Source: an uncultured Clostridia bacterium
GTDB lineage: Bacteria; Bacillota; Clostridia; Christensenellales; Aristaeellaceae
NCBI GenBank assembly: GCA_946538975.1
Contig: CAMNHF010000002.1
Span: forward strand, 1-64,000
Direction: 5' to 3'
Length of the DNA stretch: 64,000 nucleotides
The first letter of the stretch is position 1, and the number at the start of each line of letters is the position of its first letter. Below are positions 9,020 through 46,131 of this stretch, in pieces. Position numbers and translations under genes: made by a program. Below the pieces are notes generated by a model. That model was not told the DNA's origin and did not search any database. It saw only the letters and a list, made by a program, of their open reading frames with translations.

Positions 9020-9064
9020 GTGTCCATCTCCTTCCGGATTCGCTTGTTGTTAGCTGCGCAGAGG

Positions 9065-9115
9065 CTGGGGGAAGGAAACCCTTTTCGGGGCCGAAAAGGG
9101 CTTTCCTTCCCCCAG
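9065..9115. repeat. Long near-perfect intergenic hairpin
   Basis: CTGGGGGAAGGAAACCCTTTTCGG-GG-CCGAAAAGGGCTTTCCTTCCCCCAG, ~24-bp stem with one bulge, between ABC-F and dnaE. Confidence 0.8.
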
Positions 9116-9210
9116 GCCCCCATCTTTCCCAAAAGGCCTTTCCTCCGGGGCAGGGGGTTATCTTTCATGCTCGTCCGCAGCTTGCCCCGTTGGTGGAGCA
9201 GCAGCTCCAT

Positions 9211-29133: not shown

Positions 29134-29281
29134 TCCGCTCACGGCGGCTGCGCTTCATTGTTCGTGCTCATCGTTGGCCGAGGGCTGGCTATGGGGCGGA
29201 CAGGGGAATGAGAAAAACGGGCTGCGCATCGGGCGGCGCCATGGGGGCGCGCTGATTCGCAGTCCGCTTTGCGTTTCGGGT

Positions 29282-31678
29282 TTATGCGGTTGTATCCGGC
29301 TCCGGAGCGGCGCTGATCTTCACTTCCGCCGCTCCGAACTCGGAATCGGCCTTCAGCGTGACATCGCCGTGCACCTCGATGATGGCCAGCGCCTCGCCAT
29401 AGTAGGTGTCGCAGATGCTGCCCAGATAGTCCAGCTCATAGTAGGGACAGGCGCTGCCGCAGGCGAGCAGCTTCCCGCCGTCGACGGTCAGGCTGATCCT
29501 GGCGCGCTCGGTCACCTTTGTGATGCCGCTGTCGTCGGTCAGCCGCAGCCGGACGAAGGCGAGATGGCCCTTTCCGACGGCAGGCGCCTCCGGCTCCAGA
29601 CGGAGACGGGTTTCGTTTGCGGCAGAGCACAGGCGGTCGCGGCCGATCTCCCTGCCGTCGGCGTCCAGGGCGGCGGCCTCCAGCACACCCGCCTCATAGG
29701 GGACGCGGAAGCGCCAGACGCAGTTCTTTTTGTCCTTCCGGCCCGCGATCGTGCGGCCGTTCAGCTTCAGCACCAGGGAGGCGCAGCGGGCGTAGACCTC
29801 TACGTCCGCCGTGCGGCCTTCGCAGCCTGGGTAGGACCAGCTGCGCATCGCGTTGGTCATCTTCCAGGCGGAGGGGCTGTGCTTGCCCTGATGGCAGAGG
29901 GGCCGCACGGCGATGAAGGGGCCGCTTTCCCGCTCCAGGGCCACCCGGGTATAATAGGCCTCGCCCAGCGGCTTGCCGGTGAGATCAATGCGGCCGCTGC
30001 CGGCGGTGATCCAGCCGGGGCCCTGGTCGAAGCTGGGGGCGTAGTCCGGGTACTCCCACGCGCCGATCATCACCTCGCCCAGGTAGTCGATGCCGGCCCA
30101 GACAAAGTCGCCGAGAATGCGCGGCTCCTTTTTCGCGATCTCCCAGAAGCGGAAGGCATCGGCACAGAAGGTCTCGGAGCCCAGGATCAGCCGGTCGGGA
30201 TAGCGCCGCAGATCCCGCTCGTAGCGCTTCTCGCCGTAATTGTAGCCGGCGATGTCCATGGCCGCGAAGGCGTCCCGGGTATGGACATCTGAGCCGTGCA
30301 GGGTCGCGCCGAACTTCATGAAGTCCGCGCCCAGCAGCCCAGCCAGATCGTTGAAGAACTTGGAGCCGGTCGACCGCTCCTTGGCTTTCTTGCCCGCGGC
30401 CTTCGCCTTCGCATTGCGGGCGGCTTCCTTTGCCGCCTTTTCGTCGGAATACTGGCCGAAGCCGATGGCATTCAGGAAATTGAAGAAGATGTTGATGCCG
30501 CAGGTGACGGGGCGGGTGGCGTCGAGGCTGTGCAGGTATTCGGTCATCTCGCGGGTGAGGGCGATGCCCCGCGCCTGCGCCGTCTCCGCCACCTCGTTGC
30601 CGGTGGAGTAGAGGATCACACAGGGATGGCAGTAGTCCTTGTCCACCAGATCGGCCAGATCCCGCTGCCACCACTGCGCGAAGTCATTGGCGTAGTCGTA
30701 CTGGGTCTTGTGGATGTACCACATATCCACATACTCATCCATGACCAGCATGCCGAGGCGGTCGCAGATCTCCAGGGCCGTCTTGGAGCAGGGGTTGTGG
30801 GCGGAGCGGATGGCGTTGTAGCCGTTTTCCATCAGCAGGCGAACCCGGCGCTCCACCGCGTCGGGATGGCAGGCGGCGCCCAGCAGGCCGTTGTCGTGGT
30901 GGATGCAGGCGCCGCGAAGGATCACCCGCTCGCCGTTGATCTTGAGGCCGTCCCGCCCCCAGCTGAGGGTGCGCGCGCCGAAGCGCTCCTCCGCCGTGTC
31001 ATCGGCATAGCGGACCCGGCAGGTGTACAGCTTCGGGGCCTCCGGGGACCAGGGGAGGGCACCGGGGAGCTCCAGCTCGAAGCTGCGTCCGTCCCCCGCT
31101 GCGCCGGCCAGCACCTTTCCGCCATCGCGGATCTCCACGGCGACCGGCCCGTCCCCGCTGGTTTTCACGTCCACGCGAATCTTCACGGGCCGCACGGAAA
31201 GGGTCGTGATCTTCACGCCGTTCAGCGCAATGTGCCGCTTTCCGCTGCGCCACAGCCGCACGGGGCGGTATATGCCCGCGCCGGAGTACCAGCGCGAGTT
31301 GGGCTGATCGGCGTTGCGGGCGATGACCTCCACCGTGTTTTCCCCCGCGTGGACAAAGGCACCGCAGTCCACATAAAAGTTCGTGTAGCCGTAGGGGCGG
31401 AAGCCGGCCTTCTGCCCGTTGATGCGCACCTCCGCGTTGCGGTAGACGCCCTCGAATTCCAGCACGAGGCAGCCGGCCAGATCCGCTTCGGAGAGGGTGA
31501 AGCGCTTCGCGTAGAGGTAATCGTGTCCCTCAAACCAGCTGCCGTTCAGGCCGCTCGCCGCCTCGTGCGTGCGCTTCTCCCGGAGCATGGCGTCATCGGG
31601 AATGGAGACAGGCCGGCCTTCGCCCGCTTCCTCCAGGTGACGGCAGGTCCAGCCGTCGTGAAACAGTTCGCTCAGCAT
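29282..31678 (-). CDS. Glycoside hydrolase family 2 (beta-galactosidase/glucuronidase-type)
   Basis: FEGVYRNAEVRINGQ, RSAHNPCSKTALEICDRLGMLVMDEY, ILYSTGNEVAE, SETFCADAF. Confidence 0.94.
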   Translation of the reverse strand: MLSELFHDGWTCRHLEEAGEGRPVSIPDDAMLREKRTHEAASGLNGSWFEGHDYLYAKRFTLSEADLAGCLVLEFEGVYRNAEVRINGQKAGFRPYGYTNFYVDCGAFVHAGENTVEVIARNADQPNSRWYSGAGIYRPVRLWRSGKRHIALNGVKITTLSVRPVKIRVDVKTSGDGPVAVEIRDGGKVLAGAAGDGRSFELELPGALPWSPEAPKLYTCRVRYADDTAEERFGARTLSWGRDGLKINGERVILRGACIHHDNGLLGAACHPDAVERRVRLLMENGYNAIRSAHNPCSKTALEICDRLGMLVMDEYVDMWYIHKTQYDYANDFAQWWQRDLADLVDKDYCHPCVILYSTGNEVAETAQARGIALTREMTEYLHSLDATRPVTCGINIFFNFLNAIGFGQYSDEKAAKEAARNAKAKAAGKKAKERSTGSKFFNDLAGLLGADFMKFGATLHGSDVHTRDAFAAMDIAGYNYGEKRYERDLRRYPDRLILGSETFCADAFRFWEIAKKEPRILGDFVWAGIDYLGEVMIGAWEYPDYAPSFDQGPGWITAGSGRIDLTGKPLGEAYYTRVALERESGPFIAVRPLCHQGKHSPSAWKMTNAMRSWSYPGCEGRTADVEVYARCASLVLKLNGRTIAGRKDKKNCVWRFRVPYEAGVLEAAALDADGREIGRDRLCSAANETRLRLEPEAPAVGKGHLAFVRLRLTDDSGITKVTERARISLTVDGGKLLACGSACPYYELDYLGSICDTYYGEALAIIEVHGDVTLKADSEFGAAEVKISAAPEPDTTA

Positions 31679-31820
31679 GGGTATGCCTCCTTGCGGCGTT
31701 TGAATCCGGCGCTTGAATCGCCCGTTCGGGGAACAGGCACTGTCAGGATCTTACGTCTGCGGCGCAGCCGGGGCAAGGCGGACAGCACAGATTGCCGCTT
31801 TCCCGGCGTATTCTGTGAGA

Positions 31821-31850
31821 AAGGGCGGCAGTCCGTGCAGACCGCCGCCC
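31821..31850 (-). terminator. Hairpin terminator between small membrane gene and GH2
   Basis: - strand GGGCGGCGGTC-TGCACG-GACTGCCGCCC then TTTCTC (11-bp stem with one G-U). Confidence 0.6.
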
Positions 31851-31871
31851 CGGGAAGCGTGCCGAATGGAA

Positions 31872-32267
31872 TCAGGCCTTGGATTTCTTCATGAAGCAGG
31901 CCGCGACGGCGGTGATGATGGCCGCGATGCTGACGCCGGCCAGGGTGTAGTTCAGCCCCGCCAGCTCCGGCAGGCCGACCATCTTGATGCCGTTCATGGA
32001 TTCCGCGATGTTCCAGATGCCGTCAGAGAACACGGTGATGCACACATAGGCCAGGGCTGCCGCGCCGAGAATGCCGGTGAAATCGGTCCAGGGCTTCTCG
32101 CCCAGGAGGGAGGCCGCCTCGCACAGGATCGCCACGACGGCCGCGGCCCACACCAGGCCCTGCACCACGCCGCCCTGGGCGCTGTAGACAATCAGCAGGA
32201 TGAAGGTCACCACCGCCAGCACGCAGGTGACGGCCGCGAAATAGAAGCCAGTGCTCTTGTTTTTCAT
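31872..32267 (-). CDS. Small membrane protein associated with GH3
   Basis: 4 predicted TMs, MKNKSTGFYFAAVTCVLAVVTFILLIVYSAQGG, ends FMKKSKA. RBS aaaggag upstream. Confidence 0.82.
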   Translation of the reverse strand: MKNKSTGFYFAAVTCVLAVVTFILLIVYSAQGGVVQGLVWAAAVVAILCEAASLLGEKPWTDFTGILGAAALAYVCITVFSDGIWNIAESMNGIKMVGLPELAGLNYTLAGVSIAAIITAVAACFMKKSKA

Positions 32268-32300
32268 GGTTGGATCTCCTTTCCTCATGTCGTCTCCGGG

Positions 32301-35300
32301 TCAGGCGCTCCGGCGGGTCTTCATCTTGGAGAAGATCAGCAGGGCCAGGCTCAGCAGGGCCAGAATGGCGGAGCAGATGATGGTGGCGTTGATGGCGGTC
32401 GCCCACCAGGGGGTGATGTGCTCAATCACGGAGGTGGAGGAGTAACCGTTGGCGATGACAGAGCGGCTGATGGCGTATTCCCAGCTGATGGCCGCCTCCT
32501 TCAGGAGGTTCAGCAGGTGGCCGTCGTCGGTCTCCCGGGCCTTGTTCAGAACCCAGGTGCCGTGGCCGCCCACGCCGTCCAGGCACCATTCCTGGGTGCC
32601 GGCCGCCAGGACTTCCGCCGCGTGATTCTTGTAGCCGCCGTCGGTGTATTCGCCGAAGCAGGGCGCTGCGTCCGTATCGATGGCGCCATACCAGCCCCAC
32701 TCGTTCCGGAGCACCTGGGTGTTCAGCGCGTAGCTGGCGGAGGACCACTTCAGGCCCAGCCGCTCGAAGGACTGCATGATGCCGCCGGCATTGGCCACGC
32801 GCACGGAGCCCTCAAAGGCGCGGAGGCTGCCCTCACGGAAGGCCTGCTCGTTGAAGAAGCAGGTGAGGCCTTCACGGTAGAATTCCTGATCGTTGCCCAC
32901 AAAATGCTTGGGAGCGGCATGGGAGCCGGTCTTCTCGGTGGCGATGACTTCCGCAGCGCCGGCCAGGTAGTTCAGGGTCGGGCACTCGGACATGTACTCG
33001 AAGTTGCGGCCGCCGAAGGGGGTGCGGTGCAGGTCGTTGCCCACGTTGTAGTTAATCATGAAGTTGGCCCACATGCCGTCCTCGCCCATCATCGTGCCGC
33101 GGCCTTCGATGATGTCATAGCTGAAGGAGCCCACCATGATCGGGTTGGAGCAGTAGCGGACGGTGGGCACGGTGGTTTCCTCGCCGTTCACCGTCACGGG
33201 GATGGGATAATTGCCGCCCACGGAGTCGCAGCCGTCGCCCACGGCGAAGGAGGGGGAGAGCTCGCCCACGGCGGGGCAGGAGAAGCTCTCGGCGGTGGCG
33301 TTGGGCAGATCCTCCACCTTCAGCTGGTGGATGAACAGGTTCCAGGTCTCGGTGTCGCTCAGGGGCACATCCTTCATATGGGCCAGGTTCAGGCCGCTGT
33401 TCACGCCGAAGCCGGCGGCGGCCTCCGCGAAGGTGGGTGCGTCCGCGGGCTTCTCATACCATTCGCCGTCCAGCACGTCCATCATTTCCTGGGTCGCGCT
33501 GACGACGGTCTGGCTGACGGGATAGGTGCCGGCCCAATCGCTGCGGCTCAGATAGGTGCCGGCGCCGGGAACCCAGTAGTTGAGATCGCAGTCCGCGAAC
33601 TGGTTGGTAACCGCCACGCCGTTGGCGCCGGTGCGGTACTTCTCGCTGTCGAAGCTCTGGCTCCACTTGTAGCTCCGGGCGCTGACACCCTCGGCGGTCA
33701 TGCCGTTTTCGACGGTGTAGCCCTGGGCCGCCAGGATGTTGTTCAGCGCGTCATGCACGTCGTCGCCGATGGCCAGGTAGTAGTCGCCCTCGGAGAGGAT
33801 GTAGCCGCCCTCGCCGCCGTTGGCCGTCACGTCGTAGCTGGCCAGCAGGTACTTGTCCACGGTGATCGTGATCGTCTCGGACGCGCCGGGCTGGAGCAGG
33901 GCGGTCTTGCCGAAGCCTGCCAGGGCGATGGCGGATTTCTCCACCTTGTGCTCCTTCTCATAGGCGCCGTAGGGCGTCTGCACGTAGAGCTGCACCACGC
34001 TCTTGCCGGCCGTGCTGCCGGTGTTCTTCACGGTCACCTTGGCAGTCAGCTGATCGTCCGCGACGGTTACGCTGTCCAGGGTCTGCTCGAAGGTGGTGTA
34101 GGAGAGACCGAAGCCGAAGGGATACTGCACCTCGGCCGCGTAGTCCCATTTCTCGGCGCCCGGGAGCGCGCCGGCCTTGTCGGCGGCGTTGCCCTGGCCC
34201 ATGACGGCGTCCGCATAGCGGGTCTCATAGTAGCGGTAGCCGATGTAGATGTTCTCCGCCTGGAAGGACATGTAGTCGGAGCTCTCGTCCTCGCCGATCG
34301 CGGCGTGGATCGCGTCCACATTCGCGAAGAGCGGGGAGTCCGTGCCCGAGTTCACGACGGCGGGCGCGGAGAGGGAATTGGTGGCGTAGGTGTCGGTCAG
34401 GCGGCCGGAGGGGTTCACGACGCCGCGGAGAATCTCCGCCACGCCCACGAAGCCCTGATGGCCGGGATAGCCGATGTACAGGATCGCGTCCGCGTACTGG
34501 GCGATCTCATGCACTTCCATCTGGTAGGGGCTGTTCAGCAGCACGATGACCTTGGAGAAGTTGGCCCGGGCCAGCTCCAGCAGATCGCGCTCGTTCTTAT
34601 GTAGGGCCAGGGCGCTGATGGGGCCCTCGGCGCCGCCCACGTCGTCCTTGTCCTTCATCAGGAGATCCGTGCCTTCCGCGCCTTCACGGGTGAAGACCAC
34701 GATGGCCGCGTCGCTGTAATCGGCGTAGGACGCAGCATACTGCTCATAATAGGCCCGGTTCTCCTCGGTGCCGGCGGCAGAGCCGTTCACCTGGATGGAC
34801 GAGCCGCCCCAGGGGGTCGTGCTCAGCACGCCGCGGGCCGCGGTGCCGCCCTGCAGGCCGGTCCACAGCGTACCGTTGACTTCGAAGCCCTGGCCTTCCA
34901 GCGCCGTCTTCAGGTCCACGGAGTTCACCGCGCCGTTCTTCACCTTGGTGCCGGCGGAGGAAGCCTGATAGGCCGGATCCACCGCGCCGTGACCGAAGAC
35001 GGAGACCTTCACCGCATCCGTGAGCGGCAGCACGCCGTCTTTGTTCATCAGCAGGGCCGCACCCTCGCGCATCTCGTTCCGGTTCTGCTCCAGGGCCGCC
35101 TCGATGGCCTTGGCCTGGGCCGCCGGATCGTCAAACGCGCCGAACTGGCTCTTGAAGTAGACCGTGTCCGCGGGCGCTTCGCCCTTTTCCACCACAACGG
35201 CGGTGTTGATGCCCAGCTGGGTGTTGATGTAGCTGCCGTTGGCCGTAGCCAGGGTGTTGCCCACCAGGGCAATCACCAGAATGACAGCGAAGAGCGCCGT

Positions 35301-35330
35301 CAGGCCGGACCACAGTTTCGAGTTCTTCAA
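32301..35330 (-). CDS. Glycoside hydrolase family 3, membrane anchored at both ends
   Basis: N- and C-terminal TMs; ALLMNKDGVLPLT, ILYIGYPGHQGFVGVAEILRGVVNPSGRLTDT, YPFGFGLSYTTF. Start is uncertain: TTG 35330 has GGGAGG 9 nt upstream; ATG 35357/35369 are alternatives. Confidence 0.9.
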   Translation of the reverse strand: MKNSKLWSGLTALFAVILVIALVGNTLATANGSYINTQLGINTAVVVEKGEAPADTVYFKSQFGAFDDPAAQAKAIEAALEQNRNEMREGAALLMNKDGVLPLTDAVKVSVFGHGAVDPAYQASSAGTKVKNGAVNSVDLKTALEGQGFEVNGTLWTGLQGGTAARGVLSTTPWGGSSIQVNGSAAGTEENRAYYEQYAASYADYSDAAIVVFTREGAEGTDLLMKDKDDVGGAEGPISALALHKNERDLLELARANFSKVIVLLNSPYQMEVHEIAQYADAILYIGYPGHQGFVGVAEILRGVVNPSGRLTDTYATNSLSAPAVVNSGTDSPLFANVDAIHAAIGEDESSDYMSFQAENIYIGYRYYETRYADAVMGQGNAADKAGALPGAEKWDYAAEVQYPFGFGLSYTTFEQTLDSVTVADDQLTAKVTVKNTGSTAGKSVVQLYVQTPYGAYEKEHKVEKSAIALAGFGKTALLQPGASETITITVDKYLLASYDVTANGGEGGYILSEGDYYLAIGDDVHDALNNILAAQGYTVENGMTAEGVSARSYKWSQSFDSEKYRTGANGVAVTNQFADCDLNYWVPGAGTYLSRSDWAGTYPVSQTVVSATQEMMDVLDGEWYEKPADAPTFAEAAAGFGVNSGLNLAHMKDVPLSDTETWNLFIHQLKVEDLPNATAESFSCPAVGELSPSFAVGDGCDSVGGNYPIPVTVNGEETTVPTVRYCSNPIMVGSFSYDIIEGRGTMMGEDGMWANFMINYNVGNDLHRTPFGGRNFEYMSECPTLNYLAGAAEVIATEKTGSHAAPKHFVGNDQEFYREGLTCFFNEQAFREGSLRAFEGSVRVANAGGIMQSFERLGLKWSSASYALNTQVLRNEWGWYGAIDTDAAPCFGEYTDGGYKNHAAEVLAAGTQEWCLDGVGGHGTWVLNKARETDDGHLLNLLKEAAISWEYAISRSVIANGYSSTSVIEHITPWWATAINATIICSAILALLSLALLIFSKMKTRRSA

Positions 35331-35431
35331 AACAGATCGCCTCCCTTTTCCGTCCATGGATGCATCCATCCATTTGCTGCCCCCAGTATAGGGCAGGCCG
35401 GGCGGAAAAGGAAGGCGAACTGCGCAAGTGG

Positions 35432-36712
35432 TCAATTCTGCGGCGCAGGTGGTCGGGGAAAGAGCATGTCCACGCTGAACATCTGTTCTGCCCAGCCGGT
35501 GGTGAACACGCCGCCGTATTTTTCGCACAGATAGCGCATGCTGCGGACGCCGTAGCCGTGATAATCCCGGTCCTGCTTGCTGGTGACCGGGATGCCGTCC
35601 ACGAACAGGGGCTCCTTCGCGCAGGGGTTTTCGATATGCACGCAGAAGAAGCTGCCGCGCGCCGCCGCGGAGAGCGTGATGACGCGCCGGGCCTCGTTTT
35701 CCTCCTGCCGGGTGCTCTCGATGGCGTTGTCCAGCGCGTTGCCCAGCAGGGAGTACAGATCCTCCACCGTCATGAAGGAGAAGCCGGCGCCGTCCACAAC
35801 GGAGCGGATGGAGATGTGCTCCCGCTCCGCCAGCAGGCTCTTCTTGGCCAGAATGATGTCCACGTCCGGATTGCCGGACTTGGGAAAGTGGTCGTAGATC
35901 AGCACGGCGTCCTCCAGGGCCGCGATGCTCTGCTCCCGCTGCTCCCGGTTCATGCTGCGCAGCGCGGCGATCTGATGCCGCAGGTCGTGGCATTTCCGGT
36001 TGATGACCTCCACCGTGGCCTTGCTCATGGCGTGCTGCTCCTGCTCCTGCCGGAGCATGCGCTGCATGATGAGCTGGTCGCGCTCGGCCTTCCGGATGCG
36101 GAAAACATCCATCAGAATGAAGAGCAGCAGCACGCAGGTGAAGGCATCGAAGGCCTGCACGCCCACGGTTTCGGTCTCCTGCGAGGTCGTCCAGTAGCTG
36201 AGCACATAGACAATCAGGCTGGAGACCACCGCGAAGCCCGCCAGATGGCCGCCGCGCATGTCCACCGTCTCGCTGACGCCGAAGCGATCCCGCAGGCGGC
36301 GCCAGACAAACAGGCAGGCCGCGCAGAGATAGATCAGCTGCAGCGTCTGCGCCCAGGGCTGGCTCAGATGGAAGGCCAGCTCCGAGATCCGGTAGCAGCA
36401 GTGCACCAGATGCTGGAGCGTATGCGCCACGCAGCAGTAGAAGACCACCTGCCGCGCGTTCATCCGGAAGCAAAAGCCCATCAGCAGCCCGGAGAGAACG
36501 AGGAAGAGCATGAAGCTGAAGGTGAACCAGCCGATGGTCAGGAATGGCGCAAAGTAGAAGTCCGGGATCAGCACCGGCAGCAGGACATACAGGGCGGCCG
36601 CCGGCAGAAAGCGCAGCCAGAAGGGCTCCCGGCGCTGCAGCCGCAGGCAGAAGATCAGCTCAATCGCCAGAATATGCAGATGAAATGAATTGACAAACCA
36701 CATCTGCGTCAC
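35432..36712 (-). CDS. Sensor histidine kinase, AgrC-like (multi-TM plus GHKL ATPase)
   Basis: CHDLRHQIAALR H-box, LGNALDNAIE N-box, GYGVRSMRYLCEKYGG G-box. GTG start overlaps the response regulator stop by 4 bp. Confidence 0.9.
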   Translation of the reverse strand: MTQMWFVNSFHLHILAIELIFCLRLQRREPFWLRFLPAAALYVLLPVLIPDFYFAPFLTIGWFTFSFMLFLVLSGLLMGFCFRMNARQVVFYCCVAHTLQHLVHCCYRISELAFHLSQPWAQTLQLIYLCAACLFVWRRLRDRFGVSETVDMRGGHLAGFAVVSSLIVYVLSYWTTSQETETVGVQAFDAFTCVLLLFILMDVFRIRKAERDQLIMQRMLRQEQEQHAMSKATVEVINRKCHDLRHQIAALRSMNREQREQSIAALEDAVLIYDHFPKSGNPDVDIILAKKSLLAEREHISIRSVVDGAGFSFMTVEDLYSLLGNALDNAIESTRQEENEARRVITLSAAARGSFFCVHIENPCAKEPLFVDGIPVTSKQDRDYHGYGVRSMRYLCEKYGGVFTTGWAEQMFSVDMLFPRPPAPQN

Positions 36713-37419
36713 CGTCCCACACCTCCCAATACCATGGCCAGCTTCTCCATGCACTCTTTCCGCCTGCGCCGGGAGAGGGGAATCACGGCGCCGTGCACGG
36801 TCAGGCTGTCCTCCGTCACCGATGAGACATAGGCGCAGTTTACCAGATGGCTGGGCGTGACGCGGAGGAAGCGCTGAAAGCGTTCGTCCTCCTCCAGGGC
36901 GGACAGCTTGCCGTAGGCCTCGAAGTCGCCCTCCGACGTGTGGAAGATCAGGCTGTGGCTGTAGACCTCCACATAGTACAGATCCCGCAGGTCGATCTTC
37001 CTCACCACGCTGCGGCTGTTGATCAGGTAGCTTCTCGCGCCTTGCCGCGCCAGCATGCGGCCGAGGCGGTCCAGCTTCATCGCAAATTCCTCATAGCTGA
37101 TCGGCTTGACCACGAAATCCAGCGCGCCGACCTCGTAGCCGTGGATGGCATACTGCGCCATGCTGGTGATGAAGCACAGCAGCACATTGCCGTCCGCCTC
37201 CCGGAGCTTCCGCGCGCAGGTCATGCCGTCCATCAGCGGCATCACGACGTCCATGAACACCACGTCATAATCGCCCCGGTACCCTTCCAGAAAGGCGATC
37301 GGGTTGTCATGCCAGACGAGGTCGATGTCCGCGTGCTTCTCCGCGCTGTATCGGCTGCAGTAGCGCTGGATCGTCCTCGCGTACGCCTCCTCGTCCTCCA
37401 CCATGGCGATGCGGATCAT
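36709..37419 (-). CDS. LytTR-family response regulator, AgrA-like
   Basis: MIRIAMVEDEEAY receiver, DVVFMDVVMPLMDG, C-terminal LytTR (YYVEVYSHSLIFHTSEG). Confidence 0.92.
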   Translation of the reverse strand: MIRIAMVEDEEAYARTIQRYCSRYSAEKHADIDLVWHDNPIAFLEGYRGDYDVVFMDVVMPLMDGMTCARKLREADGNVLLCFITSMAQYAIHGYEVGALDFVVKPISYEEFAMKLDRLGRMLARQGARSYLINSRSVVRKIDLRDLYYVEVYSHSLIFHTSEGDFEAYGKLSALEEDERFQRFLRVTPSHLVNCAYVSSVTEDSLTVHGAVIPLSRRRRKECMEKLAMVLGGVGR

Positions 37420-37469
37420 GAGCGCGCGCCTCCAAATTGTTGTTTTTGCATCGACGGATGCCTGCTGTC

Positions 37470-37499
37470 ATCATAGCACGGGGGCCGACATCGCGTCAA
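37470..37499 (-). promoter_or_regulatory. Promoter of response regulator/kinase operon
   Basis: - strand TTGACG (37499-37494), 18 nt, TATGAT (37475-37470). A GCATC-CGTC-GATGC hairpin lies in the leader. Confidence 0.6.
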
Positions 37500-37523
37500 G
37501 CCGCGGCGAGGGCTCCTCACGGC

Positions 37524-37985
37524 TCATCGGCCCCATGGCGGCTGGACGACGACCTGCCACAGCCGCACGGGGCGGTAGATGCCTGCGCCGGAGTACCAGC
37601 GCGAGTTGGGCTGATCCGCGTTGCGGGCGATGACCTCCACCGTGTTTTCCCCCGCGCGGACAAAGGCGCCGCAGTCCACATAAAAGTTCGTGTAGCCGTA
37701 GGGGCGGAAGCCGGCCTTCTGCCCGTTGATGCGCACCTCCGCGTTGCGGTAGACGCCCTCGAATTCCAGCACGAGGCAGCCGGCCAGATCCGCTTCGGAG
37801 AGGGTGAAGCGCTTCGCGTAGAGGTAATCGTGTCCCTCAAACCAGCTGCCGTTCAGGCCGCTCGCCGCCTCGTGCGTGCGCTTCTCCCGGAGCATGGCGT
37901 CATCGGGAATGGAGACAGGCCGGCCTTCGCCCGCTTCCTCCAGGTGACGGCAGGTCCAGCCGTCGTGAAACAGTTCGCTCAGCAT
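37524..37985 (-). pseudogene. Truncated second copy of the GH2 gene (N-terminal ~143 aa)
   Basis: DNA 37556-38251 aligns without indels to 31249-31944. Protein matches GH2 residues 1 to ~143 (MLSELFHDGW...YRPVRLW), then diverges (QVVVQPPWGR stop). Confidence 0.9.
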
Positions 37986-38330
37986 GGGTATGCCTCCTTG
38001 CGGCGTTTGAATCCGGCGCTTGAATCGCCCGTTCGGGGAACAGGCACTGTCAGGATCTTACGTCTGCGGCGCAGCCGGGGCAAGGCGGACAGCACAGATT
38101 GCCGCTTTCCCGGCGTATTCTGTGAGAAAGGGCGGCAGTCCGTGCAGACCGCCGCCCCGGGAAGCGTGCCGAATGGAATCAGGCCTTGGATTTCTTCATG
38201 AAGCAGGCCGCGACGGCGGTGATGATGGCCGCGATGTTGACGCCGGCCAGGACTTCCGCCGATTGATACTTGCAGCCGCCGTCGGTGTATTTGCCGAAGC
38301 AGGGCGCTGCGTCCGTATCGATGGCGCCAG
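37556..38330. repeat. Mosaic duplicate of GH2/small membrane/GH3 segments
   Basis: 37556-38251 matches 31249-31944 (constant offset 6307). 38247 to ~38330 matches 32606 to ~32689 inside GH3. The junction shares CCAGG. Confidence 0.92.
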
Positions 38331-38469
38331 GAGCGTTGCTCCTACTGCCGCAAGCAGTACAAGACCGACCAGACCCGGGCAGATGCATGCAAAAGCGCTC
38401 CTCACGGCGAGGACTGCTGTTTTGAATTGCTGCGTGAATCTCTTGATGTGCCCCGAAGAGGCCTTTCTG

Positions 38470-41400
38470 TCACCAGTCCAGCGTGAATTCGTCGATGTCG
38501 GCAAATTCGGGGAAGTGCTTCTTCTTGTATTCCAGCAGCAGGGCGGTGCAGCGGATCGCGCTATGGGAGACGGCCAGCTCCAGCAGGCCGGAGATCTGTG
38601 CAGCGGTGAAGCCGGAGAGGCTCTCCTCCGTCAGCGCCGGATCGTTGTCGCAGCTGACCTGATGTGCCATGGTCGCCTTGTCCAGCACCAGCAGGATGGC
38701 GTTCATCTCCCGCGGGCTGCCGTCATGGATGACGCTTTTCCCGAAGGTAACTGCGCCGGTCTTCTCATCCACGGTGTAGTGCAAACACAGGCTCCTGCCA
38801 AAGTACATATCATTCTCGTTAGAGAAAGCAAATTTGCCGGTGCTGTCATCATAATACCGGCGCATCTCTCCGGAATGCACATCGATGCCGCGCAGGGCCA
38901 GCGCTTTCTTCACCGCGCTGCGTTCTTCCTTGGACAACACGGCGCCAGCGTACCGTGTCTCCCTGATTTCACTGATCCTTCTCGCGTACAAAGGCTCCCA
39001 CACCTGTTCAAAGAGCTGCTTTTTGCCAGTCCGGGCGAAATACCGCTGCCAGGCCACCGTTTGAGCAGGATCCATCTCGATCACATGGGCGACGCGGATC
39101 TTGCCTTTCGGGTTGCAGGGCTGTCCTTTGCAGTCAACAAAACGGTCGCCTTCGATCACGAAGGTCGTTTTCCCTTCATCCTCCCATACCAGCAGATTGG
39201 TCAGATGACGGATGACCGGATGCCCCACGTACACCCTGCGCCACAGCTCGGGATTCAGCCATTCGCCGGACATATGCAGCTTGTGGAGCAGGGCTGTGCG
39301 CTCCTTCGCAAAGGTGAGAACTTCCTTTTTGAACGCAGCATACGCCTCCGCGCACGCCTCCGCTTTGGCCGGATCGCTGCCCTTCTTCGGGAAACTGCGA
39401 ATCTCCTTTTGCTTCGCAGTGTCGAAGAGCCTGAAGCCCAGTTCCGGCGTGATGCTGACCTCGATCACGGTATCGCCGGTGTCATAGCGCTTGATGCCGT
39501 CCGCGTCGAAATCAAACGCGGGCAGCATGACAGAATCCCGCATCTCCATTGCCGTCATGCCGCGCATCTCCGCGTATCGGTCGAGCTCTCCGATTCTTTC
39601 ATAGAACTGCATCGCCGCGGGCGTATCGTTGATCATCAGTGCATCACGGATGCATCTTGCCTTTTTATGATCCTCGTCCGCATCTCTCTTCCTGATCATC
39701 GTTTTGTATGTTGCGGTCATCCGTTCAATGCTCTCCTCGTCCGCAAAGCTTGCCCAGGCAATCAGCCATGGCCTGAAGCTGTAGCCGCTCACCAGGCTTT
39801 CGCAGAACAGAGAAAGAGAGGCTTGATCCAGCGCCTGTGCCACCGCATCTGCCTGCGGATGCCGTTTGATTTTTATTCCTCTCATCAGCACTGGCTCAGC
39901 CGAGGAAGTGGCACAGCGATTCCATTCCCGGGCATATTCGGACAGGATAAACGCCACGGCTTCCCGAGACGAAAGCGTCGTTGATCCGGCATAGGGAAGA
40001 CCTTTCTTCACTACGCTTAATGCTTCCGGGAGCAGAGGACTGTTCTTCATCCATTCCCGCACATGCGCCTCGATGGGATTCTCAATGACTTTTCCACCGG
40101 CAAGAATCATGGTGATCTCCGGATTCGTCTGAAGAATTGTTAAATCAGAATATTTCCGCTGCTCCAGCAGTTTCATCGCCGACACAAGCTGTTCTGGCAG
40201 CAGCTTCTGCAGATAAGCTAGAATATAGGCCCCGACAACCTTCGCCGGCGCTTTGTTGTCTTGTGCGAACTGCGCAAGCATATGATCGAAAACTGCCTTC
40301 TCCCTGCCGCTGATCTGCTCGTTGACACGTTTTGCCCACGCTACGCCTTTCTGATACAGCATGACAAAGGCGATTTCCCGGTCAGAAAAGCGAATCGGTA
40401 TCTTTGCGAATTCAGCGTACAGTTTTTCTTTAGTTGCGAAATAACCGTTAGAGATTACTTCCCTCAAGCTCTCACATTCGCGAAAAGCCGATTCACTGAT
40501 ACTGGTCACGCTGTCCGGGATTGTGATGCTCTCGAGGCTGCTACAGCCAGAGAAAGCCCATTCGCCAATGCTTGTTACGCTGTCTGGGATGGTGATGCTC
40601 GTGAGGCTGCTGCACTGATAGAAAGCGCGATCGCCAATGCTTGTTACGCTGGGCGGAATTGATACGCTTGTGATTTTGCCGCATCCCCCAAATGCTCTGT
40701 ATGGGATCTCCCTTGTTCCCTCTGGGATGACGATCTCATGTGTGATCACATCGTCCAGCACCAATTCTGTTGATCCACTGAATGGATTGTCTTCCCAGTA
40801 CTGCTTTTTCATCGAAAGCCACGAGGTCAGACTGGTACAACGGATCTCATGAATGCTGCAGCCTGAGAAAGCGTGCTTGCCAATGCTGGTCACACTATTC
40901 GGAATTGATACACTTGTGATTTTGCTGCATCCCCAAAATGCTCCGTATGGGATCTCCCTTGTTCCCTCTGGAATGACGATCTCATGTGTGATCACATCGT
41001 CCAGCACCAATTCTGTTGATCCACTGAATGGATTGTCTTTCCAGTACTGCTTTTTCATCGAAAACCACGAGGTCAGACTGGCACAACGGATCTCATGAAT
41101 GCTGCAGCCATCGAAAGCCCAATTGCCAATGCGGGTGACGCTGTCCGGGATGGTGATGCTCGTGAGGCTGCTGCAGCCAAAGAAAGCGCGATCGCCAATA
41201 CTGGTGACGCTGTCTGGGATGGTGATGCTCGTGAGGCTGCTGCAGCCTTCGAAAGCGCGATCGCCAATGCTGGTCACACTACTTGGAATTGATACGCTTG
41301 TGATTCTGCCACATCCCCAAAATGCTCCGCATGGGATCTCCCTTGTTCCCTCTGGGATGACGATCTCATGTACGCTCACATCATCCAGCACCAAATCTGT

Positions 41401-41673
41401 ATATTCTCTGAACGGATTATCGCACCAGTTTTCCTTTTTCATCGAAAGCCATGAAGCCAGACTCGCACAGCGGACTTCAAAAATGTTGCAGTGACTGAAA
41501 GCCCAGACGCCAATACTTGTGACGCTGTCCGGGATTGTGATGCTTGTGAGGCGTCCGCAGCCAGCGAAAGCCTTCTCGCCAATGCTGGTCACTCCATCTG
41601 GGATCACCACGTCTCCGCCAGATCCTTCGTATCTGACCAGGCATCCCTGCTTATCAATTACGAAATCACTCAT
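38470..41673 (-). CDS. BspA-type leucine-rich repeat protein with C-terminal DUF4132-like domain
   Basis: 1067 aa. N-terminal LRR_5 repeats (SLTSITIPDSVTSIGDRAFFGCS). C-terminal region with GKIRVAHVIEMDPAQTVAWQRYFARTGKKQLFEQVWEPLY and SPREMNAILLVLDKATMAHQ, recalling MolR/YehI DUF4132. Confidence 0.82.
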   Translation of the reverse strand: MSDFVIDKQGCLVRYEGSGGDVVIPDGVTSIGEKAFAGCGRLTSITIPDSVTSIGVWAFSHCNIFEVRCASLASWLSMKKENWCDNPFREYTDLVLDDVSVHEIVIPEGTREIPCGAFWGCGRITSVSIPSSVTSIGDRAFEGCSSLTSITIPDSVTSIGDRAFFGCSSLTSITIPDSVTRIGNWAFDGCSIHEIRCASLTSWFSMKKQYWKDNPFSGSTELVLDDVITHEIVIPEGTREIPYGAFWGCSKITSVSIPNSVTSIGKHAFSGCSIHEIRCTSLTSWLSMKKQYWEDNPFSGSTELVLDDVITHEIVIPEGTREIPYRAFGGCGKITSVSIPPSVTSIGDRAFYQCSSLTSITIPDSVTSIGEWAFSGCSSLESITIPDSVTSISESAFRECESLREVISNGYFATKEKLYAEFAKIPIRFSDREIAFVMLYQKGVAWAKRVNEQISGREKAVFDHMLAQFAQDNKAPAKVVGAYILAYLQKLLPEQLVSAMKLLEQRKYSDLTILQTNPEITMILAGGKVIENPIEAHVREWMKNSPLLPEALSVVKKGLPYAGSTTLSSREAVAFILSEYAREWNRCATSSAEPVLMRGIKIKRHPQADAVAQALDQASLSLFCESLVSGYSFRPWLIAWASFADEESIERMTATYKTMIRKRDADEDHKKARCIRDALMINDTPAAMQFYERIGELDRYAEMRGMTAMEMRDSVMLPAFDFDADGIKRYDTGDTVIEVSITPELGFRLFDTAKQKEIRSFPKKGSDPAKAEACAEAYAAFKKEVLTFAKERTALLHKLHMSGEWLNPELWRRVYVGHPVIRHLTNLLVWEDEGKTTFVIEGDRFVDCKGQPCNPKGKIRVAHVIEMDPAQTVAWQRYFARTGKKQLFEQVWEPLYARRISEIRETRYAGAVLSKEERSAVKKALALRGIDVHSGEMRRYYDDSTGKFAFSNENDMYFGRSLCLHYTVDEKTGAVTFGKSVIHDGSPREMNAILLVLDKATMAHQVSCDNDPALTEESLSGFTAAQISGLLELAVSHSAIRCTALLLEYKKKHFPEFADIDEFTLDW
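40701..41500 (-). repeat. Near-identical LRR super-repeats at DNA level
   Basis: Blocks at about 40701, 40947 and 41331 (offsets 246 and 384 bp), plus 69-bp LRR units. Confidence 0.8.
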
Positions 41674-42151
41674 GCTCCTGCACGCCCTTCCCTGTGCTTT
41701 TCTGTTTTTCCATCCGTTCCAGCATTCGCCGGTGCGAGGTTGCCTTGCTGCACATTTGCTTTGCGAGCGCCAGCCCGTCTTCCGCGACGGACAGCAGGTC
41801 TTCGGAGTGAAGCTCCTGCTTCAGCAGCGCGTGGATCAGCCCGTTGCGCCGGTTTTTCCACGCAAGAACGGCGTCAGTCAGGGCGGCGGGGAAATAACGG
41901 CGCGCGGGGTTTGTCTTCTCCTCCGCCAGCTTGACGACAAGCCGCACCTTTCGGTCGATGCTGACGTGTTCTCCTTCCTTCGGATGCCAGTGGTCTGCGT
42001 GCCGCAGCACGGCCTCCAGCCGGTCCTCCAGGATGGCGTATTCGATGAAGATCGCTTCCAGATAGAAATGCTCCTTCAGCGCCTTGCTCAGCCGTCCCAT
42101 CTGCTCCCGATAGTTCTCATACTTCTTCTGATTGGCAATCGGTTGATCCAA
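41666..42151 (-). CDS. HEPN-like domain protein (putative)
   Basis: All-helical ~161 aa protein: YLEAIFIEYAILEDRLEAVLRHA ... WKNRRNGLIHALLKQ, with RNGLIH fitting Rx4-6H. 8-bp overlap with the LRR gene. RBS AAGGAGG; start TTG 42151 (or 42160). Confidence 0.65.
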   Translation of the reverse strand: MDQPIANQKKYENYREQMGRLSKALKEHFYLEAIFIEYAILEDRLEAVLRHADHWHPKEGEHVSIDRKVRLVVKLAEEKTNPARRYFPAALTDAVLAWKNRRNGLIHALLKQELHSEDLLSVAEDGLALAKQMCSKATSHRRMLERMEKQKSTGKGVQEHE

Positions 42152-42270
42152 TGGTCTCAACCTCCTTGATCTGTCAGATTTGTTTGTTATCCGGGAGACT
42201 CTCTGACCGGCGCTCCAATTCCTGCCGGATGGTCATATACTGTCCTGAATATGCCGTTTCCGCAGACACC

Positions 42271-43788
42271 TCACTCCCCCAGCTCCAGCTCGTCGATGCT
42301 TTGGAAGAGCTGCATCTGGCGCTCGTGGAAGAGGAGATTCTTGTTGTGGCGGAAATAGCCCTCGCAGCCGTACTTGCCGATGAAGCGGGAGGCGGCGGGG
42401 CGCAGGGTGATCTCGGTCACGAGGATCAGCAGCTCGTGACCGTCGGGGAAGACCTTCTCGCAGAAGGCAAACATGTTTTCCAGCTTGTCGCGGGTGGCCG
42501 CGGCCTGCTTTTTCAGCTTGGCGTTCTCCGCGTCGAACATCCGCTTGATGATGGCGAAGGCGGCCAGGCCGGAGGCGGGATTCTCGCGGCGGATGGCCTC
42601 GGCAATGGCATTCATCGTCTGCGCGGCCAGGCGGCGGCTGCGGGCGTCCTTCTCGGACATGGAGTTCGCCTTGCGGCCCGTCTTCGCTTCCTTCTCCAGC
42701 TCTGCCGCGCGGCTGACCAGCAGCCCGGCCGCCGACTCCGCGTCCTTGCCGATCTTCACGCGCATCGTTTTCAGATCGTTCATCAGCAGGCGCATCATGT
42801 CCTCTGCCTCGCTGACGGCCTGCAGGTCGTTGTCCACGGCGTCCAGCAGCAGGCCCAGCAGGGCGATCCGCTCGTCAAACTTGGCCTTCATCGCGCGGTC
42901 ATGGATCGACAGCGACGCGCTGCCGGCGAGGATGGCGTCCACCTGATAGTCGCTGCGGTATTTGCGGAACAGGTCGTAATAGACCGCAAAGCTCCTGGCG
43001 ATCTTCGCGTCCTGCAGGTACTGGCGGATCAGCCGCTCGTTGACCGGGTAGCCCAGCTGCTCGTACAGCTTGATCATGTCCGAGAGGTCGACCCAGCCGC
43101 GGGCGGTGACGAAGCGCTTGCCGTCCACGGTCGTCTCCACCTTGTAGAAGTCGTCCTTGCGGATCTCCAGATAGGTGAGCACGGCCGCGTGCACGCCGTG
43201 GGCCGCGGCGTACTCCTTCCACACGGTGAAGTCCGGCTCCACATCGATGCGCTTCAGCCGGTCCCAGGTCACGATGTCGAACTCGCGGACGGAATCGTTG
43301 TACTCCGGCGGATTGCCCGCGGTGACCACGGTCCAGCCGTCCGGCACGCGGTGGCGGCCAAAGGTCTTGTACTGCAGGAACTGCAGCATGGAGGGCGCCA
43401 GCGTCTCGGAGACGCAGTTGATCTCATCGAGGAAGAGGATGCCCTCCTCCAGGCCGTCCTGCTCGATGCGGTCATACACGGAGGCGATGATCTCGCTCAT
43501 CGTGTATTCTGAGACATCGTACTCCTGATCCCGGTAGTTCTTGTGCACGATGAAGGGCAGGCCCAGCGCGCTCTGCCGGGTGTGGTGGGTCATCGAGTAG
43601 GACACCAGGCCGATGCCCAGCTCCTGCGCGATCTGCTCCATGATGGCCGTCTTGCCGATGCCGGGAGGGCCCATCAGGAACACCGGGCGCTGCCGCTCCA
43701 CGGGGATGGTCAGCTCGCCCAGGTCGTTCCGCATGCGGTACGCGGTGACCGCCTGCTGAATCTGCTGCTTGGCGTCTTTGATGTTCAT
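42271..43788 (-). CDS. MoxR-type AAA+ ATPase
   Basis: Walker A GPPGIGKTA, Walker B GILFLDEINCVSE, VVTAGNPPEYNDSVREFD sensor region. Confidence 0.92.
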   Translation of the reverse strand: MNIKDAKQQIQQAVTAYRMRNDLGELTIPVERQRPVFLMGPPGIGKTAIMEQIAQELGIGLVSYSMTHHTRQSALGLPFIVHKNYRDQEYDVSEYTMSEIIASVYDRIEQDGLEEGILFLDEINCVSETLAPSMLQFLQYKTFGRHRVPDGWTVVTAGNPPEYNDSVREFDIVTWDRLKRIDVEPDFTVWKEYAAAHGVHAAVLTYLEIRKDDFYKVETTVDGKRFVTARGWVDLSDMIKLYEQLGYPVNERLIRQYLQDAKIARSFAVYYDLFRKYRSDYQVDAILAGSASLSIHDRAMKAKFDERIALLGLLLDAVDNDLQAVSEAEDMMRLLMNDLKTMRVKIGKDAESAAGLLVSRAAELEKEAKTGRKANSMSEKDARSRRLAAQTMNAIAEAIRRENPASGLAAFAIIKRMFDAENAKLKKQAAATRDKLENMFAFCEKVFPDGHELLILVTEITLRPAASRFIGKYGCEGYFRHNKNLLFHERQMQLFQSIDELELGE

Positions 43789-43896
43789 GCAATCTCCTCC
43801 ATGCGCTGCTGTCGGGCTGTGCCAACGCTTATCGCAGCTTCACCCGTGCCGCGCCTCATCATTTCTGCTCTGTTCCGGTATTCCATCGCATGCGCA

Positions 43897-45729
43897 CTAT
43901 CGTTTCCGCTCCTCCAGGTCGGTGTCCTCCAGGATCAGCTTGATGGCCCAGGGCGGGACATCAGGGTTGTCGTACTCGCTGCGGAGGAAGACAAAGGCCG
44001 TGCTGTAGTCCGGCTTGCGCTCCGGGAAGGTGCCGTAGCCGTCGGTGAAGTAGATCAGCCCGCGGAAATTGCGGAACTCGTGCTGCCGGATCAGCTGATC
44101 CACATAGGCGAAGACCGGCCGGAAGTCCGTGCCGCCCAGACCCTTGATCGTCATGTGCTGCAGGTAAGCCTCGAATTCGTCCTGGCTGGTGAGCTTCACG
44201 GCCTCCTGGATCTCCGCGTCGCACTGGATGACGTGCACATTGACCCGCGAGAAGAAGCTCTCGGTGCTCATCAGAATGTTGAACGTCTTCTGCAGAAAGC
44301 GCTGCACCAGCTCGCCGCTGGTGGAGCCGGAGGTGTCGATGGCGATGACGAACTCGCGGATGCGCTTCACATCCTTGTACTCCAGCGGCTCGATCAGCGG
44401 CATGTTCCGGAACAGCTTCAGGCCGTAGGTGTAAAAGATGTAGTCGAACTCGTCGTCGTTGATCTTCATGGCCTCCCCGTGCACCGCGAACTTCTTCAGG
44501 AAGGCCTCGTAATTGTACCGCTCGCGGTTCAGCTCCATCAGCTGCTGCTGCATGCCGCCGGCCTGGAGGCCCATCTGCTTGCTGAAGGTCTCCAGATCCA
44601 TCGCCACGTGCTCGCTGATGTCCCGCCACTCATCCTCCAGCGCCTGCCGCGCCGCGGCCTCGCTCTGCTCCGGCCCGTACTCCGTCCCTGTATCGGGCGC
44701 GGCCTGCTGGGGGAACTGCATCTCCTGCGAGCCGCTGCCCGCGCCGCTGCCATGGCCCTGCCTGGGCTGCTGCTGGCCCGGCGCGCCGGCATCCTGTCCG
44801 GCTTGCTGCTGATTGCTCTGCTGGCTGTCCTGTGAACCGCCGCCGGAACCTTGGCCGGATTGCTGCTGATTGCCCTGCTGGCTGTCCTGCGATCCGCTGC
44901 CGGAGCCTTGCCCCGACTGCTGCTGGTCGCCCTGCGGTCCGCCGCCGGAACCCTGCCCGGCTTGCTGCTGATCCTGCTGGTCTCCCTGCGATTCGCCGCC
45001 GGCATCCTGCCCGGCTTGCTGCTGATCCTGCTGGTCTCCCTGCGAACCGCCGCCGGAGCCTTGCCCGGATTGCTGCTGATCCTGCTGGTCGTCCTGCGAT
45101 TCACCGCCGGAACCCTGTCCGGACTGCTGCTGATCCTGCGAATTGCCGCCGGAGCTCTGCCTGTTTTGCGGGCTGCGGCTGGGCTTGGACTGAGCCTGCT
45201 GCCGCATCTGCTGCGCCTGTGCCGGCTTGTGCCAGATGTCGTGCTCGTCCGCGCAGAAGAGGGCAGCCCAGTCTTTCCTCGGCGGATGGTCCAGGAAATA
45301 GTGATAGAGCTTCTCCGCGGTCAGCGGCTGCACTTTCCCTCGCAGAGCAGCCGTAACCTGCTGCTGCTTTGCCTCCACCGGCACGGTGAAGTGGGGGAGG
45401 TTCATCTCGGTGATCAGCGATTCCACCGCGATGTCACAGGCCAGATCCCACAGCTGGGCGTCCACCAGGCTGTTGACGAAGGGATGCCGGAACAGGCAGT
45501 GCAGCAGCACGTGCATGTAGGCTCGGTTCACCTGATTGACGTCCGCCCGGTAGCACCGCAGCAGCCACATCGGCGTGTAGAACAGATGCTCGCCGTCCGT
45601 GGCCAGCGTGACCTGCGCCACCTGCGGCTTCAGCCGGAACACCGCCATGTCCAGAAACCGCTGATTGACCAGAATGTTGGTGCGCACCTGACTGAGCACC
45701 TCTCTGGCGAGTTCTTCGGGCTGTACCAT
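43897..45729 (-). CDS. VWA-like protein with degenerate metallopeptidase-like N-domain (DUF2201/COG3864-type)
   Basis: AYMHVLLHCLFRHPFVN (HxxxH), repeat linker, C-terminal VIAIDTSGSTSGE MIDAS and GLGGTDFRPVFAYVDQL. AGGAGG RBS before ATG at 45729. Confidence 0.87.
   Translation of the reverse strand: MVQPEELAREVLSQVRTNILVNQRFLDMAVFRLKPQVAQVTLATDGEHLFYTPMWLLRCYRADVNQVNRAYMHVLLHCLFRHPFVNSLVDAQLWDLACDIAVESLITEMNLPHFTVPVEAKQQQVTAALRGKVQPLTAEKLYHYFLDHPPRKDWAALFCADEHDIWHKPAQAQQMRQQAQSKPSRSPQNRQSSGGNSQDQQQSGQGSGGESQDDQQDQQQSGQGSGGGSQGDQQDQQQAGQDAGGESQGDQQDQQQAGQGSGGGPQGDQQQSGQGSGSGSQDSQQGNQQQSGQGSGGGSQDSQQSNQQQAGQDAGAPGQQQPRQGHGSGAGSGSQEMQFPQQAAPDTGTEYGPEQSEAAARQALEDEWRDISEHVAMDLETFSKQMGLQAGGMQQQLMELNRERYNYEAFLKKFAVHGEAMKINDDEFDYIFYTYGLKLFRNMPLIEPLEYKDVKRIREFVIAIDTSGSTSGELVQRFLQKTFNILMSTESFFSRVNVHVIQCDAEIQEAVKLTSQDEFEAYLQHMTIKGLGGTDFRPVFAYVDQLIRQHEFRNFRGLIYFTDGYGTFPERKPDYSTAFVFLRSEYDNPDVPPWAIKLILEDTDLEERKR
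44790..45160 (-). repeat. In-frame tandem repeats encoding Q/S/G-rich linker in vWA protein
   Basis: About 7 units of ~45-60 bp encoding variants of DQQQSGQGSGGGSQGDQ. Confidence 0.88.
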
Positions 45730-46131
45730 GCGCTCCTCCTGCCGCCCAGGCGGGAACGCTTCCCCCGGCCTGCGCGGATCCATTGAAAAAACTGCACCGA
45801 ATCCTGATACGGTGATGATACCACATTTTTTGCGATTTGGGAAGATTGTGATGCCCCTTTGTTGGATCGATTCTGTGGCTCTGCTGCCTGAGCGCTTTCA
45901 TGAAATGCCCGGCAGGCGCTGCGTTGGGAAAGGTTTGGCGCTGATTCAGCGGGACATGCATTGCGGCTGAATGAATATGTGGAATGGACGGAATTCAGCA
46001 TGTTCGACATGAGCCGGCTGTAACAGACACAGGGCGATTGAGCCTTCGCGATCAGCAAAGCCGCCGCACCCTCACAGGCAATGCGCTGTGGGGTGCGGCG
46101 GCCTTTGGCTTTGCGGGGCGGCGCCCGGGCT

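Follow-up and report, generated by a model that had tools for sequence, protein, structure and literature searches.

What is the short stretch of operon sequence that lies directly upstream of an intact glycoside hydrolase operon in an uncultured gut or rumen Clostridia bacterium, and how did it come to be there? This segment, referred to here as the scar, was examined within a 64,000-nucleotide stretch of contig CAMNHF010000002.1 (the window). The operon occupies the minus strand in the order RR (37419-36709), HK (36754-35432), GH3 (35378-32301), MP (32288-31872) and GH2 (31678-29282). RR is a response regulator with receiver and LytTR domains (Pfam), for which same-order orthologues (84-88%) are present in the two closest relatives, and a consensus scan places a minus-strand promoter-like site, TTGACG-18-TATGAT with a TG before the -10, at 37470-37499; the same motif is present in the relative G004. 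HK is a sensor kinase with a GHKL ATPase domain (PF14501, E = 1.7e-19). The GH3 glycoside hydrolase is an intact 1,025-residue frame, the small membrane protein MP an intact frame of 138 residues, and the GH2 glycoside hydrolase, the last gene of the operon, an intact frame of 798 residues with GH2 N-terminal, middle and C-terminal Pfam domains (E down to 9e-22). The Pfam domain order of GH3 (GH3_C, Fn3, GH3_N) is the reverse of the usual one; GH3 enzymes with this reversed order are known in rumen bacteria. Additionally, a smaller, partly palindromic repeated element spans the 3' end of GH2 (29214-29292) and is also found on contigs C136 and C11 at 77-80% identity.

Self-BLASTN of the window, a check that an initial sequence-only reading had proposed, returned two matches between the operon and the scar, and both are far beyond chance. 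The first, piece A, aligns 37556-38251 with 31249-31944 over 696 bp at 99.1% identity (E = 0), with six mismatches (37578, 37584, 37617, 37657, 37668 and 38237) and no gaps, exactly the gap-free collinearity that had been described. It lies on the minus strand and comprises the first ~430 bp of GH2, the GH2 promoter and MP terminator region, and the 3' end of MP. The second match aligns 38242-38329 with 32602-32688 (93%, E = 8e-30 over 88 bp); the part beyond piece A is piece B (38252-38328, minus strand), an internal GH3 fragment with five mismatches, at 38262, 38263, 38268, 38273 and 38292. At the A-B junction exactly 666 bp of the operon are skipped, which bears out the size of the internal deletion first proposed. 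The jump into GH3 had been placed at a shared CCAGG, and the jump itself stands; the shared sequence is one base longer, a 6-bp GCCAGG present at 31939-31944 and at 32605-32610, of which the scar retains a single copy (38246-38251). Both pieces keep the orientation and gene order of the intact operon.

The reading frames of the scar are truncated or fused. The copied segment derives in part from the first part of the intact GH2, and the corresponding scar frame (37524-37985, minus strand) encodes 153 of the 798 residues: the sugar-binding domain (Glyco_hydro_2_N, E = 1.6e-14) and about 10 unrelated residues. MP and GH3 are present as fragments only. Pieces A and B share one open frame of 96 codons; an in-frame join of this kind has a one in three chance of occurring. 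A short filler (37507-37555) separates the RR promoter from the scar; it has no counterpart in the relatives beyond 37506 or in the operon left of 31249.

Comparison with related genomes indicates where this arrangement originated. The same five genes occur in the same order, once each, in at least five relatives: G003, G004, G008, L039 and L045 (contigs CAMVAJ010000004.1 for G003, JAFWSH010000006.1 for G004, CAMJPQ010000001.1 for G008, CADAKE010000033.1 and ONVN01000012.1). The intact operon is thus an orthologue of the GH2-GH3 and LytTR/GHKL operons of these five Clostridia metagenome-assembled genomes, with identical gene order, and MP is kept between GH3 and GH2 in all five. Unlike the present genome, none of the five operon-bearing relatives has a copy of the scar upstream of RR, and an origin of the scar within this lineage is therefore the simplest reading. 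The two-component system, which had initially been thought to have come to lie between the two copies, is therefore part of the conserved RR-HK-GH3-MP-GH2 unit, and no separate event is needed to place it there; it and the enzymes beside the scar are intact.

Homology to G003 extends from 29295 to 37435 and homology to G004 from 29322 to 37506, the latter limit being just outside the RR promoter. The scar begins about 50 bp beyond the RR promoter-like site, outside the conserved region. The genes flanking the operon on either side differ among all genomes compared, and because those flanks are unrelated to the ones in relatives, the operon ends are breakpoints. Insertion of the operon into a previously intact locus was considered and rejected: no relative has both flanks adjacent, RibD and the MoxR-like ATPase are found in unrelated places, and an empty site in which the flanks are joined without the operon was not found among the relatives compared. 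The suggestion that relatives might retain an intact second operon was not borne out either. Each of the five has one operon, and the only paralogues nearby, a GH2 at 50% in G004 and a GH3 at 33% in L039, are too distant to have given rise to a 99% copy; neither an intact second copy nor an intermediate was found in any genome. The G004 paralogue (L037:2840-4983; 50% protein identity) is situated some 3 kb upstream of RR and shares its orientation; the diverged GH3 of L039 has the corresponding position. The window gave no Rfam or tRNA matches, and thus no tRNA integration site is present. No paper specific to this case was found in the literature.

The differences between the two copies were polarised using G003 and G004. 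At four of the six piece A mismatches (37578, 37617, 37668 and 38237) both relatives share the base of the scar, and the working operon is derived; at the other two (37584 and 37657) the derived base is that of the scar. Because the scar keeps the ancestral base at these four sites, the copies must have split before the corresponding changes in the operon. Within the GH2 part, four of the five differences are silent, three of them derived in the working operon, and only two changes are derived in the scar, one of which is silent. In piece B, all five changes alter the amino acid, which fits with loss of function.

The mismatches are unevenly distributed. All 11 differences over 773 bp fall within the 205 bp outside a 568-bp mismatch-free stretch (37669-38236), a clustering with P of about 3.5e-6 under an even spread, or 2.7e-4 for piece A alone, in which every mismatch is within 113 bp of one repeat edge or 15 bp of the other. 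This identical core takes in all of the MP-GH2 intergenic region, a sequence with little conservation between species. Because the copies split before the operon changes and yet are identical over 568 bp, the core was homogenised after the split. Either gene conversion between the direct repeats, which are 6.3 kb apart, or collapse during short-read assembly could account for this, and collapse is a serious candidate given that the genome is a 214-contig draft. Since either explains the identity, the identical core says nothing on selection.

The far side of the scar does not derive from the operon. The sequence-only reading had described a mosaic of operon pieces, which holds for pieces A and B and overlooks a third piece, C (38325-38381, plus strand). 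This is similar to the 3' terminus of a gene that lies on contig C8 of this genome (C8:11078-11137), in opposite orientation, at 86% over 43 bp (E of about 1e-7) or 78% over 60 columns. The C8 gene carries an AAA_31 domain and follows a Wzz-like reading frame, and for these reasons is read as a putative CpsD/CapB-type tyrosine kinase gene. No other close copy occurs in this genome. In the alignment the differences respect codons (one codon missing and several third-position changes), and thus piece C probably came from a diverged homologue of the C8 gene. As the CpsD-like fragment is not from the operon, at least one further event is needed. A zinc-finger-like protein was also considered for piece C and was rejected, with no Pfam matches and no relatives in 60 genomes. 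Just downstream of the CpsD-like gene on C8 lies a palindromic, REP-like repeat of about 120 bp; it also occurs at 9050-9170 in the window, and the draft genome has at least 40 such places (79 matches when both palindrome strands are counted; 40 of 143 candidates scored).

The remainder (38382-38469), up to the stop codon of the neighbouring LRR/DUF4132 gene, gave no hit below E = 0.7 in the rest of the genome. A hairpin at about 38398-38420 was rejected as a terminator, being no better than shuffled sequence (z = -0.57). The junction sequence had no matches among viral contigs, where one GH2 relative was found at 52% identity. The adjoining cluster (38470-45783) encodes a BspA-type LRR/DUF4132 protein, a MoxR-like AAA ATPase and another large protein, whose repeats are rich in Q, G and S. 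For the last two, diverged paralogues occur on contig C5, and relatives are present in G001 and G036.

Overall, the scar is probably a decayed partial tandem duplicate, what remains of an additional GH3-MP-GH2 end of the five-gene operon. This explanation draws on the observed pieces, their order and orientation, the microhomology, the absence from relatives and the polarity of the changes. A head-to-tail duplication would have placed a second GH3-MP-GH2 upstream of RR. The extra copy would then have lost 666 bp between two GCCAGG sites through a micro- or short-homology deletion, and rearrangements would have truncated it on both sides and left the end of a CpsD-like gene on its far side. Afterwards, gene conversion may have restored the identity of the 568-bp core with the operon, or assembly collapse may make the two appear identical. 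The initial proposal, a degenerate duplicate that underwent a microhomology deletion and was truncated on either side, therefore fits the sequence, except that the scar cannot be read as just a recent copy, given the ancestral bases at four of six sites and the homogenised core.

Pseudogenes formed by partial tandem duplication and micro- or short-homology deletions are a known kind in bacterial genomes. The scar shares with them the order and orientation of the intact genes, the truncated ends, the deletion between short direct repeats and, in its GH3 piece, amino-acid-changing drift. Unlike them, it is joined to a CpsD-like fragment and has an identical core with diverged ends. The latter pattern recalls the known process of gene conversion, or concerted evolution, acting on direct repeats that lie close together, since the repeats are 6.3 kb apart in the same orientation; assembler collapse would give the same picture.

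It is possible, if unlikely, that a short-read metagenome assembler joined or collapsed two loci or strain variants, such that the scar or its 568-bp core is not as drawn. The genome is a draft of 214 contigs (87.7% completeness, 2.2% contamination), and the exact repeat is longer than usual k-mers. A de Bruijn graph separates copies near repeat edges, where k-mers overlap unique sequence, and the confinement of the piece A mismatches to those edges is what such an artefact would be expected to give. However, the repeat is on no other contig, and the A-B join consists of a 6-bp microhomology and an exact skip into sequence 6% different from the operon, rather than an exact repeat of k-mer size. 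Additionally, the piece A mismatches are often ancestral bases and hence not read errors. The scar is regarded as real in the assembled sequence and as ordinary genomic debris beside an intact operon, which short-read assembly could have partly blurred.

The pieces could alternatively be filler DNA, copied from the operon and the CpsD locus by template switching in a single event when the operon met the LRR/DUF4132 gene. The operon edge is a breakpoint, as the unrelated flanks on both sides indicate, and the pieces come from more than one locus. This scenario is nevertheless improbable: A and B retain the operon order and orientation, and divergence differs by piece (99%, 93% and 78-86%), which one recent event would not produce unless the sources differed.

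The scar is likely to be without function. Piece A does carry the putative GH2 promoter without any change (TTGCCC-17-TAAGAT, 38055-38083, minus strand; also at 31748-31776, with a similar element in G004), and it was considered whether this promoter and the open 153-residue frame, directed toward RR, might raise expression of the two-component system or yield a small sugar-binding protein; no terminator-like site was found between the promoter copy and RR on that strand. There is no sign that selection maintains the promoter copy, the 153-residue frame or the 96-codon frame. Such a role is very doubtful, because RR has its own promoter-like site, kept in G004, the scar is absent from relatives, and piece B shows no constraint. 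It would be just as surprising if the scar were kept as a dosage or loss switch, in which a direct repeat of at least 568 bp would delete or amplify the 6.3-kb MP-GH3-HK-RR segment while the copied GH2 promoter would feed the two-component system.

The main consequence is for annotation: the truncated GH2 frame is not to be called a second enzyme, and the operon comprises five genes, its own two-component system among them. Should the identical core prove real, the locus would be a modest case in which recombination keeps a dead copy matched to its neighbour. The operon would then also be prone to deletion, as the direct repeats are predicted to let the MP-GH3-HK-RR segment be lost or amplified.
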